This document shows positions 20,692-30,158 of a stretch of 64,000 nt of DNA, piece after piece. The stretch comes from Streptomyces sp. SID8352 (GTDB lineage: Bacteria > Actinomycetota > Actinomycetes > Streptomycetales > Streptomycetaceae). Every line of letters starts with the position of its first letter. Position 1 is the first letter of the stretch. Location of the stretch: the NCBI RefSeq assembly GCF_009862265.1, contig NZ_WWGX01000023.1, positions 1 through 64,000 of the forward strand, in the 5' to 3' direction. Under the pieces are notes generated by a model. The model made no database searches and was not told where the DNA came from. It saw only the letters and a list, made by a program, of their open reading frames with translations. Both the position numbers and the translations under genes were made by a program.

Positions 20692-21135
20692 GAATGTCGT
20701 CCTCACGGTTCACGGGCTTTGTGGTCGTGCCCGGCCGGGCCGGCCGGTTGACGGCATCGTCTGCCCTTTCCAAACCGGATGGCGAACCGGGACATGAATT
20801 CCGGGAAAGGCTCCGACGTGCTTTTACCGCTGCCACAGCCTCGCACGGGACCGGTCTGGCCAGAATAGGACCTAGGTCCCGGCGCAACGGAGGGCGGGCG
20901 CACCGCCCGGAACGGACGGGAAGTCCGGGTGGCGCCGAATGGTCGCGGTTCATCGCGGATGGTGCGGCCGCCGTCCCTCACCGGCAGCGCCCTTTGATTA
21001 CCCCGTCCCGTCCGGCCGTGAAGCCCGTGGGCACCGCGTCCGGCGCGGGACCGGTTCATGCCGGCCCGCCGTGAATGGCCGTCCGAGTGCGCCGTCCGGA
21101 CCGCCGGCACGGGCGCGAAGGGGGGCGGGACGGAA
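20692..21135. other. Divergent regulatory region of the biosynthetic cluster
   Basis: No gene is supportable. A perfect 12-bp palindrome GGACCTAGGTCC lies at 20868-20879, about 180 bp from the ATP-grasp start, a possible operator. The sequence just beyond it is moderately AT-richer (CAGAATA). The right part merges into leader A at 21136. Confidence 0.5.
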
Positions 21136-21303
21136 ACGCCATGGGCAGATGGGCCTATTGCGACCCGGCCACCCGCCGCACAGAATTCCTGTCGCCCCCT
21201 GCCGCCGGAGGGGGCTTACGCCGCGCGGCAGGAAGCACTTCCCCTGCCGCGCCGACAGATGAGCGCCAAGCGGTTGGACGACGCGTTCCCGCTCCGCGGA
21301 GGT
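21136..21303 (+). promoter_or_regulatory. Leader A: upstream element duplicated before the enolpyruvyl transferase
   Basis: The segment matches 21920-22090 over its whole length in the same order: AACGCCATGGG, GGCCTATTGC, ACAGAAT, CCCCCTGCCG...GGAG, GCGCGGCAGGA, GCCAAGCGG, GGACGAC and TTCCCGC...CCGC. GC-rich inverted segments (CTGCCGCC...GGCAGG) suggest a folded RNA. It ends about 90 bases before the flavin reductase start. No open frame runs through both copies, so it is probably a promoter plus structured 5' leader or a regulator-binding region. Confidence 0.65.
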
Positions 21304-21390
21304 CGCCCGCGCCGCACACGGCGGGGACACGGCCCCGCGACAGGCTTCGGGCCCCGGACCGGGTCCCGCGGGACAGGATGGGGTGCTGCC

Positions 21391-21888
21391 GTGACGGCGG
21401 AAACGGTACGGCGGGCGAGCTCCGGCGACTTCCGGGCGGCGATGGCCCGGTTCGCGGCCGGGGTCGTGGTGGTGACGACGCTGGGCGACGGCGGGCTGCC
21501 GCGCGGCTTCACGGCGAGTTCGTTCTGCTCGGTGTCGCTGCACCCGCCGCTGGTCCTGGTCTGCCTGGCCAACTCGGCCGAGTCCTTCGAGGCGTTCGAC
21601 TCCTGCGGGCACTTCGCGGTCAGCGTGCTGGGCCCCGAGCACCGGCGACTGGCTCAGCGGTTCGCGACCCGGGGCACCGACAAGTTCGCCCCGGAGGGCC
21701 TGTCCCGTACGCCCGGCGGCCTGCCGTCCGTGGCGGGCGCGCTGGCCGAACTGGACTGCGAGGTGCACGCCCGGTATCCGGCCGGGGACCACATGATCCT
21801 GATCGGCCGGGTGTCGGGCGCCCGCCTGGGCGTGGACACGGCGACCCCCATGGTCTATTACGAGAGGGACTTCCGCATTCTGGCGTGA
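21391..21888 (+). CDS. Flavin reductase domain protein (FMN reductase of a two-component system)
   Basis: This 165-residue flavin-reductase-like (DIM6/NTAB) protein reads FRAAMARFAAGVVVVTTLGD, then GFTASSFCSVSLHPPLVLVC, then CEVHARYPAGDHMILIGRV. It would supply reduced flavin from NAD(P)H to the LLM monooxygenase encoded at 12980-14080. The start GTG follows GACAGGATGGGGTG. It is the first gene on the rightward arm of the cluster and is preceded by leader A. Confidence 0.88.
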   Translation: MTAETVRRASSGDFRAAMARFAAGVVVVTTLGDGGLPRGFTASSFCSVSLHPPLVLVCLANSAESFEAFDSCGHFAVSVLGPEHRRLAQRFATRGTDKFAPEGLSRTPGGLPSVAGALAELDCEVHARYPAGDHMILIGRVSGARLGVDTATPMVYYERDFRILA

Positions 21889-21919
21889 GCGGCACGGGGA
21901 TCGTCCGGGCCACCGTATG

Positions 21920-22090
21920 ACGAAAACGCCATGGGATCATCGGCCTATTGCCCCCGCGCCACACGGGACACAGAATGATTACCGCGCCCCCACTGCCGGA
22001 GGCGGGTTGTCGTTGCGCGGCAGGAGAAGCTTTCCGAACTGCCCCCGACACTTCAGTGCCAAGCGGCGGGACGACATGTTCCCGCGCCGC
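21920..22090 (+). promoter_or_regulatory. Leader B: second copy of the duplicated upstream element
   Basis: It is aligned with 21136-21303: AACGCCATGGG at the left, GGCCTATTGC, ACACAGAAT, CCCACTGCCGGAGG, TGCGCGGCAGGAG, TGCCAAGCGG, GGGACGAC, TTCCCGCGCCGC. Differences are scattered rather than clustered, so both copies appear maintained. It ends about 80-95 bases before the enolpyruvyl transferase start, the same spacing as leader A to the reductase. Confidence 0.65.
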
Positions 22091-22172
22091 TGATATCGCC
22101 GGCCCGGACGTCAAAGCCACATCGCCTGCGAAGGTTTCGGATGGCGAAGGATGGGAAATGGGAGATACGAGG

Positions 22173-23522
22173 ATGCTGCTGAAGGTTGATCCGGTCGATT
22201 CCTTTTCCGGAACATTCCGAGTCCCCTCTTCGAAACCGGAGACGCAACGGGCGATTCTGGTCGGCACCCTGGCCGACGGCACATCACGGGTGTTCAACGA
22301 CCTCCGTTGCGACGAGACGGAGACCATGAAGAACGCGTGCCGTGCCATCGGCGCCACGATAACCGAGCACGACGACTTCCTGGAGATCCAGGGCATCGGC
22401 CAGTCGTCCCCGCGCATCGGGCGCGTCATCCAGTCCCGCGGCTCGGGCCTGGTGTTCCGCGTGGTGACGGCACTGGCCTCCGTGCAGCCGTCGGCGGTCG
22501 TCGTCACGGGTGACGCGACCCTGCGCAACCGGGTGATGGAGCCCCTGCTGCGGGCGCTGCGCGAACTCGGCGCGGACATCGAGTCGATCGTCGGCGAGGA
22601 CCGGGCCCCGGTCGTCAACTGGGGGGGCGGCCTGAGGGGCGGCACCTGCCGGCTCCCGGGCGACATCAGCTCGCAGTTCATCACCGCCATCCTGTTCGCC
22701 GCGCCGCTGGCCGACGGACCGGTGGAGATCGAGGTGACGGGCGAGGTCTACTCCCAGTCGTACATCCGGCAGACGCTGGCGAGCCTCACCGAGGCCGGCA
22801 TCAAGGTCACCGCCTCGGAGGACATGCGCCGTTACCAGGTGGAGCCCTCCGCCTACCAGGCCCAGGACTTCACCACCCACGAGGACTACACCTCGGCCTC
22901 GTACCTGCTGGCCGCCGCCGCGCTCTTCCCGGGCCGGACCGTCCTGACCAACGTGTACGGCGACAGCATGCAGGGCGAGTTCGCGATCGTCCCGATCCTG
23001 GAGCAGCTCGGGGTGAGCGTCACCTTCGACCGGGCCACCTCGTCGCTGACCGTCGACAACCCGCCGGGAAGCATGTGCGGCGACTTCGAGGTGGACACCC
23101 GGGACTGCCCCAACATCGTGCCCACGCTGGCCGCCCTCGGGGCGTACGTGCAGGGCAGCCTGCGGGTGACCGGCGGACGCCTCACCCGTTTCCACAAGGC
23201 CTCGCGGATCGAGGCCATGGCCGCCGAACTGACCCGTGCGGGCGTGGACATCGAGGTTCTGTACGACGACGGGATCTGCGACGGCTTCCTGGTCCGCGGC
23301 GCGCGGACCTACCCCGGCGGGGTGACGCTCTCCAGCTGGGGCGACCACCGCATCTTCATGTCGCTGTTCGTGGCGGGTCTGCGCATGCAGTCGGCCAACC
23401 GGTTCTCCGGTTTCGAGGACGTCCGGCTGTCCTTCCCCACGTTCCTGGAGGAGTTCGCCAGGGCGGGGGTGCGGGCCACGGCCGTCGAGGAGGAGGGCGT
23501 GCCCGCGGCGCCCGTCGGCTGA
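22173..23522 (+). CDS. EPSP-synthase-like enolpyruvyl transferase with altered active site
   Basis: This protein of about 449 residues has the AroA/MurA inside-out barrel pattern: VPSSKPETQRAILVGTLADG (Lys and Arg of the N-terminal site), FNDLRCDETETM, DCPNIVPTLAALGAY (catalytic Asp position) and DHRIFMSLFVAGL (the DHR motif). The usual K-E-S/T-D-R motif is replaced by HKASR, so the conserved catalytic Glu is missing. It should move an enolpyruvyl group from PEP to an acceptor other than shikimate-3-phosphate, by analogy with NikO/PolA, which use UMP. GGAGA precedes this ATG; an ATG at 22158 is also possible. Confidence 0.85.
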   Translation: MLLKVDPVDSFSGTFRVPSSKPETQRAILVGTLADGTSRVFNDLRCDETETMKNACRAIGATITEHDDFLEIQGIGQSSPRIGRVIQSRGSGLVFRVVTALASVQPSAVVVTGDATLRNRVMEPLLRALRELGADIESIVGEDRAPVVNWGGGLRGGTCRLPGDISSQFITAILFAAPLADGPVEIEVTGEVYSQSYIRQTLASLTEAGIKVTASEDMRRYQVEPSAYQAQDFTTHEDYTSASYLLAAAALFPGRTVLTNVYGDSMQGEFAIVPILEQLGVSVTFDRATSSLTVDNPPGSMCGDFEVDTRDCPNIVPTLAALGAYVQGSLRVTGGRLTRFHKASRIEAMAAELTRAGVDIEVLYDDGICDGFLVRGARTYPGGVTLSSWGDHRIFMSLFVAGLRMQSANRFSGFEDVRLSFPTFLEEFARAGVRATAVEEEGVPAAPVG

Positions 23523-25041: not shown

Positions 25042-25455
25042 GGCGTATGCACACGGGGGGAGATTTCATTGCAGTTACGCCCGCTTACGCTTTCCGTCGA
25101 TCCGCCGCGATCCGAGAATCCCGGCGAGGCTTCCGGAACGGGAAGCCCCCGTCCGGCGGAAGACCGTCGTGGCCACCGGCCGACGGGCCGTCGGCTCCTC
25201 GCCCGGCGCCGGAGCGCTTCCGCCCTCGCGCCGCCCGGTGACACCGACCCACCGGTCTCCATCTCGGCCCGGACCCCGGCGTCATGCCCGGTCCGGCCCC
25301 CTCTTCCCCCTCCTCCCCGGACCGCCCCACCGGCGCGCCGCCCTTCCCGGGCCGCAGCGATCCGGCCGGGCCGGACGCCGGACTGACTGCCGCGGCCGTC
25401 GCCCGTCGGGTGACTCGCCGGCGCTCACCATCCAGCGGCAGCATGCCGGGTGAAC

Positions 25456-25471
25456 GAAGTCCTTGGACTTC
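25456..25471. promoter_or_regulatory. Palindrome GAAGTCC-TT-GGACTTC upstream of the regulator gene
   Basis: Perfect 7+2+7 dyad 42 bp before the chosen GTG. It may be an autoregulatory binding site for a protein carrying two helix-turn-helix domains, and it supports placing the start downstream at 25513. Confidence 0.5.
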
Positions 25472-25512
25472 TTTCCCATGCCCCTTTCGGGAGACACGAG
25501 GAGAGGCAGGAC

Positions 25513-26046
25513 GTGGAAGAAGCACCGGTCGTGGAACTGACGTGCCGGGAGTTAGAGGTGCTCCGCCTACTGGCACAGGGGTTGAGCAACCGGCTCATCG
25601 CCCGGAACCTCGACATATCCGAAAAGACCGTGAAGAACCACCTCAGCAGCATCTACCCGAAGATCGGCGCCACCGACCGCATACAGGCGGCCCTCTACGC
25701 CCGGGACGCCGGTCTGACCGATCCCGGGGAACCGGCTCCGTGCGCTCCGGTGTCCATGACCGTCAGTGAAAAAGGGGGCCTGCCCGCCGATCCCGCTCTC
25801 ACCGCACGTGAACAGAGCGTACTCGCGCTATTGGCTTTGGGGTTGAGCAATCGACTCATCGCCCGGAATCTCAACATATCCGAGAAGACCGTGAAGAATC
25901 ACCTTAGCAGTATCTACTCGAAGATCGGCGCCACCCACCGTACCCAGGCCGCCCTCTACGCCCTGTATTCCGGTCCTCTGAGCTATCCCGCAGCGGTGCC
26001 TTTCCGACCGGAGAGACCCGCGCTCACGGTCAGTCCTCCTCGCTGA
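25513..26046 (+). CDS. Regulator made of two tandem LuxR-type helix-turn-helix domains
   Basis: The protein (177 residues) has no receiver, ATPase or ligand domain. It has two near-identical GerE domains: residues about 6-65 ([19 protein letters not shown], then [20 protein letters not shown]) and about 95-155 ([19 protein letters not shown], then [20 protein letters not shown]), joined by a 30-residue linker. The DNA of the two halves is also closely similar, so this is a recent internal duplication. I chose the GTG after GAGGAGAGGCAGGAC; a GTG at 25450 would add 21 residues. It is probably the cluster-specific regulator. Confidence 0.8.
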
Positions 26047-27238: not shown

Positions 27239-30158
27239 ATGCCGGTGGAGTTCTCAACTGATGATCAGGCCGAGGCGTACGGGAAGTTCGCCGAGGAGCC
27301 GACGAGACCCGAGTTGGAGCGGTTCTTCTTCCTGGACGATGTCGACCGGGATGTGATCGCGCTGCGGCGTACGAAGCATCATCAGCTGGGCTTCGCCCTC
27401 CAGATGTGCACGGTCCGCTACGTGGGGCTGTTTCTGGAGGACCCTCTCGTGGTGCCGTGGCCGGTGGTCGAGCACCTGGCCGTACAGCTCGGCATTCAGG
27501 ACCCGTCGTGCGTGAAGCGGTACACCGAGCGGCTGAAGACGGCGTACGAGCACGCGTGGGAGATCCGGGACGCCTACGGCTACCACCCGTGCGAAGATGC
27601 GGAGTGGGGGCGGAAGTTTCGGACGTTCCTGCACGGCCGGGCGTGGACCCATGCGGAGGGGCCGGTCGCGCTGTTCAACCAGGCGGTGGGTTGGCTGCGG
27701 CGGAACCGGGTGCTGCTGCCGGGTGTCTCGGTGCTGGCCCGGCAGGTGTCGGAGGTTCGCACGATCGCGGAGAAGCGGCTGCACGCCACCGTGGCCAGGG
27801 CGGCTCACGCGCGGACCCTGCGCTGCCGGCGGACCTGGTGGCCACGCTGGTGACGCCGGAGGGCGGCCGGTACTCGGAGTTGGAGCGGCTGCGCCGGCCG
27901 CCGACGGGCACGGCGTTCGCGCGGTCGCTGGAGCGGGTCGACGAGATCGGTGCGTTCCAGCTGGGGCGGTTGAGCTGTCGCAGATCCCGCCGAACCGGCT
28001 CGCGGCGCTGGCCCGTTACGGGCTGGGGTCCAAGGCTGCGAGTCTGGAGCGGGCCGCAGAGCCCAAGCGCACGGCGATGCTCACCGCGGTGATGCGCCGC
28101 CTTGAGGCCAAAGCGATCGATGAGGCCCTGGACCTGTTCTCGGTGCTGATGGCGACGAGGCTGATCAGCACGGCGAAGCGGGCGACGGGCAAGGAGCGGC
28201 TCTCGACGCTGCCGCAGCTGGAGAAGGCGTCGCGGACCCTGGCGCGGGCGGCGCTGGCCACCCGGTACAACACGGTGCGGCCGTTCCTGTCGCTGCTGGG
28301 CGAGTCGAAGGCGCTGGACGCGGCGACCCGCGGGAAGCGGGTGCTGGCCGGGGTGAAGCGGCTGCCCGCTCTGGCGCGGCGTCGGGTGAAGGACACGCCG
28401 CTGCTGCCGCGCGAGGTTGATGACAAGTTGGTGCCGGCCGCGTGGCGCAAGGCGGTGTATGCCAACGCCGGGGGCCGTGGACCGGGACGCATACGTGGTG
28501 TGCGTGCTGTAGCAGTTGCACCGCGCGCTTCAGCGCCGGGACGTGTTCGCCTCTCCCTCGCACCGCTGGTCCGACCCGCGCGCCCGGCTGCTGGACGGCA
28601 CGGAGTGGGAGGCCGTGCGGGAGGACGTTCTGACGGGTCTGAGCCTGGATATGCCGGTCGAGGAGCACCTGGCCGCGCTGGTGACGGCGCTGGATGCGGC
28701 GTGGAAGCAGATGGCGGAGCGGCTGGAGACGGCTGGGCAGGACACGAAGGTCACCATCGAGGTCCCGCCGGGCGGCCGGGCGAAGCTGAACGTGTCCAAG
28801 CTCGGCGCGCTGGGCGAGCCGAAGTCCCTGACGTGGCTGCGGGGGCGGGTGGAGAAGATGATCCCGAAGATCGACCTGCCGGAGCTGTTGTTCGAGGTGC
28901 ACGGCTGGACCGGGTTCCTGGACGCCTTCGTACACCTGGGCGACGGCACAACCCGCATGAAGGACCTGACCACCTCACTGATGGCCCTCCTGGTCTCGGA
29001 AGCGTGCAACATCGGCATGACCCCGATCATCAACCCCGCGCATGAGGCGCTTCACCGTTCCCGGCTGGTGCACGTCGACCGTTCTACCTGCGGGCCGACA
29101 CCATCGCCGCGGCGAACGCCGCACTGATCGAGGCGCAGGGCCAAGTGCCGATCGTGCGGTACTGGGGAGACGGGCTGCTGGCCTCGGTCGACGGATTGCG
29201 GTTCGTCGTTCCCGTCCGCACCATCAACGCTGCCCCGTCGCCGAAGTACTTCGGCTTCAAACGCGGCATCACCTGGCTCAACGCCGTCAATGACCAGGTC
29301 GCGGGCATCGGGCAGATGGTGGTGCCGGGCACGCCGCGCGACTCCCTGCACATTCTGGACGCCCTGCTGAACCTCGACGGCGGGGTGAAGCCGGAGATGG
29401 TCGCCACCGACAACGCCTCGTACAGCGACATCGTGTTCGGCATCTTCCGCATCCTGGGCTACAACTTCAGCCCCCGGTTCAAAGACCTGGACGACCAACG
29501 GTTCTGGCGCGCGTCCCATCCCGGCGTAGAGACCGGCACGTACGGGCCGCTGGAGCCGCTGGCCCGCAACCGGGTCAACCTGAACAAGGTGATCACTCAC
29601 TGGCCGGACATGCTCCGGGTCGCCGGTTCCCTGGTCACCAACCAGGTTCGCGCCTACGACCTGCTGCGGATGTTCGGACGCGAAGGCCACCCGACCCCGC
29701 TGGGGCAGGCATTCGCCGAGTACGGCCGGATCGCCAAGACCGAGCACCTGCTCCGCGTCGTCGACCCGGTCGACGACACCTACCGCCGCCAGATGAACCG
29801 CCAGCTCACTGTGCAGGAGTCCCGGCACAAGCTGGCCCGCGACGTGTGCCACGGCAAGCGCGGCACCATCCACCAGGCGTACCGGGACGGGATGGAGGAC
29901 CAGCTCGGCTCACTGGGCCTGGTCCTCAACGCCGTGGTGCTCTGGACCACCCGGTACATCGACGCCGCTGTCGCCCGGCTCCGTGCCGAGGCACACGAGA
30001 TCCGGGACGAGGACATCGCCCGCCTGTCCCCGCTCAAGCACCGCAACCTCAACGTCCTGGGCCGTTACAGCTTCACCGCCTCCACCCCGGCTGGCGGCGC
30101 CCTACGCCCGCTTCGCGACCCGGACGCAGTAGAACTCGACGAGGACGACGAGGGGTAG
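27239..30158 (+). pseudogene. tnpA: Tn3-family transposase TnpA, multiply frameshifted
   Basis: It begins with the DUF4158-type N-terminal domain (MPVEFSTDDQAEAYGKF...) and ends with the Tn3 DDE domain (PKYFGFKRGITWLN, EMVATDNASYSDIVFGIF with a catalytic Asp, HKLARDVCHGKRGTIHQAY with the Glu region apparently altered or further off). The length of about 970 codons is normal. Reading it needs frame changes near 27815, 27975, 28472 and 29085, and a TAG at 28510-28512 is in frame; one shift is an extra G in a GGGGG run. It is inactive as assembled; several homopolymer sites mean sequencing error must be considered. Confidence 0.88.

Follow-up and report, generated by a model that had tools for sequence, protein, structure and literature searches.

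Two similar DNA segments stand before two pathway genes in the window (the whole 64,000-nucleotide stretch of DNA that was analysed), one ahead of a flavin reductase gene and the other ahead of an AroA-family enolpyruvyl transferase gene, and the question that this locus raises is whether such a pair acts as a regulatory RNA, as an operator or in some other way. The original prediction placed direct repeats at 21136-21303 and 21920-22090. Repeat alignment and blastn both bear out their order and place, and all four of the shared blocks that had been quoted are present in copy A and in copy B. The location was therefore correct and only the extent needed adjustment, as the actual ends lie slightly wider (Table 1), giving copies of about 185 bp that are 72% identical. 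Within them, the aligned stretches are 73% identical at 21129-21199/21919-21989, 77% at 21196-21217/21987-22008 and 78% at 21252-21310/22045-22103. Using copy B as a blastn query against the 7.8-Mb genome returned copy A at 72% (E = 2.3e-19) and no third copy, the next match being 20 bases long with an E value of 0.2. The original prediction put about 80 to 95 bases between each segment and a start codon. Measured from the wider ends, copy A stops 80 nt before the GTG of the flavin reductase at 21391, and copy B 69 nt before the transferase ATG at 22173, or 54 nt if the alternative ATG at 22158 is used. The start region at ATG 22173 is conserved among relatives.

Table 1. Positions of the repeat copies, their putative promoter parts and the associated genes in the window
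Feature	Position	Strand	Remarks
Promoter-like site of the divergent ATP-grasp operon	20837..20880	-	GGGACCTAGGTCCTATT + 21 nt + GAGGCT; conserved
Copy A of the element	21128..21310	+	Precedes flavin reductase; shares 72% identity with copy B
Copy A operator-like block with putative -35	21139..21163	+	Putative -35 TTGCGA (21158-21163); near-invariant in 28 aligned copies
Copy A putative -10	21181..21186	+	CAGAAT; 17 nt past putative -35; below sigma-70 consensus scan threshold
Flavin reductase	21391..21888	+	PF01613; found in 11/17 loci
Copy B of the element	21918..22103	+	Precedes AroA-like transferase; repeat alignment and blastn
Copy B operator-like block with putative -35	21929..21953	+	Putative -35 TTGCCC (21948-21953); conservation in 13 copies
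Copy B putative -10	21971..21976	+	CAGAAT; mean identity 0.925 in 13 copies
Leader of copy B	21977..22138	+	Identity 0.69; no sign of conserved RNA structure
AroA-family enolpyruvyl transferase	22173..23522	+	TIGR01356 315 bits (cut-off 287); PF00275
Tandem-GerE LuxR-type protein, candidate activator	25450..26043	+	Two GerE domains, E = 1.1e-43; in 17/18 loci

The transferase is followed by an aminotransferase gene, and the divergent genes that face the repeats encode two ATP-grasp proteins, a DUF1611 protein and a haem-oxygenase-like protein, with further divergent genes for a PhyH oxygenase, a PhzF-like protein and a luciferase-like monooxygenase. Relatives of most of these enzymes are also grouped together in Proteobacteria, and no product of the cluster was found in the portion of the open literature searched. 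Just past the cluster, at 27239-30158, lie pieces of a Tn3-type transposase (DUF4158, DDE_Tnp_Tn3) in more than one frame.

Homologous loci were collected by a transferase search, which reaches close relatives and yielded 36 loci. Sixteen of these (L009-L022, L031 and L032) belong to Streptomyces or Actinacidiphila and are 85-94% identical; the remaining 20, mostly from Proteobacteria, are at most 56% identical, and the sequence GGGNNNNNGGWCCTATT at up to one mismatch was absent from the 8 of them that were scanned. The element recurs in the 16 Streptomyces and Actinacidiphila loci, so that 28 copies are available from 17 loci including the window, with an A core in 12 loci and a B core in 16. 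Its presence depends on the gene arrangement. A flavin reductase was found in 11 of the 17 loci, every one of which carries copy A. At one of them (L009:9295-9617) the reductase looks broken and gives two partial matches. Among the six loci with no detected flavin reductase, an A core occurs in L018 alone, 243 bp before B, and this core standing without its gene counts against a promoter role. In L020, which lacks copy B, about 50 nt separate the reductase stop from the transferase downstream, an arrangement in which both genes can be served by copy A.

A scan of 392 Streptomyces genomes found the core pattern in four; the transferase (E up to 1e-80) occurs in five, including those four. As three of these genomes (G102, G113 and G258) have the same coordinates as those behind L013, L019 and L018, only G247 provides new evidence. 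There the ATP-grasp operon includes a transferase of 70% identity (L063), and the genome contains no A or B core at up to one mismatch. The G247 cluster is rearranged: a single long operon holds the transferase, and a malic-enzyme-like gene has been inserted. That a shared cis-regulatory element precedes two pathway genes is thus well supported, both by the 28 copies in 17 loci and by the way their presence tracks gene arrangement.

What the copies have in common has the shape of a promoter. The near-invariant part of the 28 aligned copies is a 24-bp block, CCATGGGCAGATGGACCTATTGCC, a variable spacer of 16 to 18 nt and CAGAAT, and in both window copies 17 nt separate the putative -35 and -10. 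The offset from CCTATT to CAGAAT is 20 to 22 nt in 26 of the 28 copies, the other two having no -10 that the search expression found. In the 13 full B copies, mean ungapped identity is 0.865 in the operator and -35 region (21929-21954), 0.925 in the putative -10, 0.65 in the spacer, 0.853 around the ribosome-binding site and 0.346 upstream of the core. The core is conserved as DNA, although the window's own copy B deviates from the consensus block at several bases. A sigma-70 consensus scan of 20700-22200, requiring at least 9 of 12 positions, returned no promoters because TTGCCC-17-CAGAAT agrees with TTGACA/TATAAT (16-18 nt spacing) at just 8 of 12; both spacing and hexamers are conserved. 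The promoter reading therefore rests on conservation and not on consensus. Weak hexamers are usual for activator-dependent promoters. A leader peptide starting at an ATG within the core (MGRWAYC... in copy A; MGSSAYC... and a stop in copy B) was rejected, since third codon positions are conserved, L013_A has an insertion in the block and L019 lacks the ATG.

We consider it likely that one pathway-specific promoter/operator of an uncharacterised cluster is present here as two paralogous copies. Each copy would comprise an operator-like block, sitting on and just upstream of a weak -35 (TTGCCn) that it overlaps, a spacer and a -10 followed by a leader of about 190 to 200 nt. Copy A would drive the flavin reductase. 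Copy B would do so for the AroA-like transferase and probably also for the aminotransferase gene that follows. A conserved block over a weak -35 suggests a dedicated activator, which would recruit RNA polymerase, so that the element would serve in activation and not in repression. The original prediction had also offered an operator array; the operator part fits better than an RNA, and the array part does not, there being one operator-promoter per gene.

The divergent ATP-grasp operon has a conserved promoter-like site of its own. This region carries GGGAC(C/T)TAGGTCCTATTCTG with few variants, and the 17-mer was found at up to one mismatch in all 16 operon-bearing loci. Among the 392 Streptomyces genomes the motif occurs in five, exactly those with the transferase. 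A strongly conserved palindromic GGGACCTAGGTCCTATTCTG marks the divergent operon (20837-20880, minus strand) and is specific to cluster-bearing genomes. The longer form of the motif gave 19 sites in 17 of 19 genomes of interest (two handles of which are one assembly), with no match for the reversed control, and the motif also precedes a relocated luciferase-like gene in L022, L032 and L064. In L015 (15063-15434) an intact divergent-type operator persists upstream of what is left of a decayed luciferase-like gene.

Whether this site and the A/B block are one operator was addressed through the shared pattern GGG-N8-CCTATT, which is found in the divergent promoters and those of the relocated luciferase-like genes, and in A and B with up to a few changes. 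By eye it has the same offset from the putative -10 in both classes, the divergent -10 having been picked from that same alignment. A matrix built from A/B copies only placed divergent-type sites in its top five for just 3 of 18 sequences, the best 24-column alignment differs from the proposed one, and column shuffles reached the score of the proposed alignment in 77, 200 and 178 of 200 trials at widths 9, 12 and 17. The 17-mer at up to one mismatch is not enriched in the window's own genome, with 21 occurrences against 25 for the reversed control. Unbiased motif tests do not support a single operator for all promoters, and the relation of the divergent site to the A/B operator is only suggestive. 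We propose that the divergent and luciferase-gene promoters are co-regulated with each other; for A and B co-regulation with them is only suggested, because those tests do not support a shared motif.

The likeliest activator of the A/B promoters, judging from its linkage to the cluster in 17 of 18 loci, is the tandem-GerE protein. Its GerE helix-turn-helix (HTH) match reaches 147 bits in two stretches against a curated cut-off of 23.5, and Pfam finds no other domain in it, neither a PAS nor a sensor domain; the true start may be about 25513. The protein is encoded in the window and in 16 relatives, and its strand and distance vary among loci (in L014 the gene is on the same contig at a distance of about 25 kb). 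A 14-residue motif or a variant of it is assigned to the recognition helix on the basis of GerE structures; the two domains share it without change in 12 of the 17 proteins and differ in it by one or two residues in the other five. Two near-identical HTH domains could hold two half-sites per chain. When 8 candidates per genome were scored across the 392 genomes, the four core-bearing genomes gave long tandem-GerE matches, and G287 gave a 47% match to about one domain.

The promoter could also be as described and be read by another protein, such as an unlinked or global regulator or a repressor, which we regard as unlikely though far from negligible. G247 retains the divergent operator with no tandem-GerE protein, its best GerE matches spanning one domain at about 50%. 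No such operator was found before the regulator gene, and linkage could come about because the cluster is inherited as a unit. Against this, the tandem-GerE gene stays in 17 of the 18 loci despite its changes of strand and distance, and L016 keeps transferase, core and regulator when, of 12 cluster proteins searched, just the transferase and the tandem-GerE protein have a match in 21 kb. The L016 regulator is a weaker homologue (57%), under the cut used in the wider search. By eye, the neighbouring frames in L016 resemble peptide-synthetase genes.

An RNA acting in the leader, such as a riboswitch or attenuator within a transcript that starts from an upstream promoter, is very improbable. It draws on the leader of about 190 to 200 nt common to both copies, on a strong stem in copy A and on leader identity, which at 0.69 across 13 full B copies exceeds the approximately 0.35 seen upstream of copy B and counts to that degree against a simple promoter. 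The upstream region is an unfair control, however, because different sequence occupies it. Fourfold-degenerate sites of the transferase gene have a mean identity of 0.775 (range 0.57-0.95, 16 loci), a figure that is inflated by GC bias and taken over loci that differ by three from the leader set; the leader is therefore not above weakly constrained codon positions, whereas the core is. The leader is also largely missing in some relatives. The core-to-ATG distance is about 241 to 249 nt in the 13 full loci and falls to 190 nt in L031, 100 nt in L010 and 85 nt in L032. L010_B and L032_B lack most of the leader and L031 part of it, with the B core retained in all three, so the leader is not kept wherever a gene has its own copy.

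Alignment, folding and covariation analysis over the homologous loci, as the original prediction had proposed, gave no covariation. The RNAalifold covariation term was +0.63 kcal/mol for the 13 B leaders and +0.32 kcal/mol for 16 leaders of both kinds, neither of which lends support, and pair counts on the 16-leader alignment showed no excess over shuffles. Of 10 leaders folded, none was significantly more stable than its shuffles (z-scores -1.06 to +1.93), 30 to 197 of 200 shuffles folding as well as the real leader. The GC-rich complementary pieces that had been noted do form a 10-bp stem (GCGCGGCAGG/CCTGCCGCGC) in the minimum-energy fold of copy A; the stem is absent from that of copy B, and the copy-A stem is unpaired in the alignments. 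An attenuator was rejected as this stem is not conserved, and 20700-22200 holds one terminator-like site against 0.8 expected by chance. Known RNA families were rejected as well: Rfam gave no matches at the gathering score in the window, the best weak one being to an animal microRNA model (E 0.58). A shared cis-regulatory RNA is thus not supported, given the lack of an Rfam match at threshold, of covariation and of excess folding, and given that most of the copy-B leader is missing in L010 and L032.

The A and B copies of a locus are related in a further way. Own A and own B have a mean identity of 0.797, compared with 0.761 for A against B across loci, 0.776 among A copies and 0.750 among B copies, and own pairing beats random pairing at a permutation p of 0.00045 in 10 of the 11 two-copy loci (all but L018). 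This is mild evidence that the two copies influence each other, through conversion or repeated local duplication. That the repeats are just the mark of insertion or loss of a flavin-reductase cassette and have no regulatory role would account for this likeness and for a reductase that is flanked by direct repeats and not found in 6 of 17 loci, but it is very improbable, since copy B is present in all six of those loci, constraint is concentrated in the promoter-shaped core and no core is present in those arrangements where another promoter can read the gene. Direct repeats flanking the flavin reductase could recombine.

For the pathway-specific promoter/operator, a more specific form can be put forward tentatively, and we hold it to be somewhat less probable than its negation: a sensor-less chain of two GerE domains, in effect a built-in dimer, would act on a phased operator over the -35 of the AroA/ATP-grasp cluster promoters, as a module hitherto undescribed in which operator copies and HTH repeats evolve in concert. 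The analysis replaces a suspected orphan riboswitch with a testable transcriptional switch of a cluster whose product did not appear in the literature searched. Operator and candidate activator together would offer a direct route to activating the cluster and identifying what it makes.

Three groups of known systems invite comparison. Like the riboswitches and leader RNAs of Rfam 15, the element sits in the 5' leader of biosynthetic genes; it differs from them in having no family match, covariation or excess stability, and in a leader that is largely missing in some relatives. The candidate regulator carries a GerE domain as do LuxR/NarL-type regulators, but has two of them in one chain and no other domain that was found. 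Such two-domain regulators are not described in the literature searched, including passages of PMC3466318, which does not prove their absence from print. If the tandem-GerE chain binds alone, it would be an unusual design within the LuxR family. A further parallel is with the PAS-LuxR (PimM-type) operators of Streptomyces antibiotic clusters, where, according to the part of PMC9774167 consulted, a near-palindromic site in the -35 region of one cluster's promoters is read by a cluster-encoded LuxR-type protein. Both systems have a conserved site in the -35 region and a LuxR-type protein or candidate encoded in the cluster. The PimM consensus CTVGGGAWWTCCCBAG is absent at the A and B promoters (the window holds one 3-mismatch match, away from these promoters, with 3.8 expected), and the candidate has two GerE domains and, by Pfam, no PAS. 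Because the consensus is absent and the regulator architecture differs, the element is not a member of the PAS-LuxR/PimM group; by analogy, it may nevertheless work in the manner of the -35-region operators of cluster-encoded LuxR-type activators.
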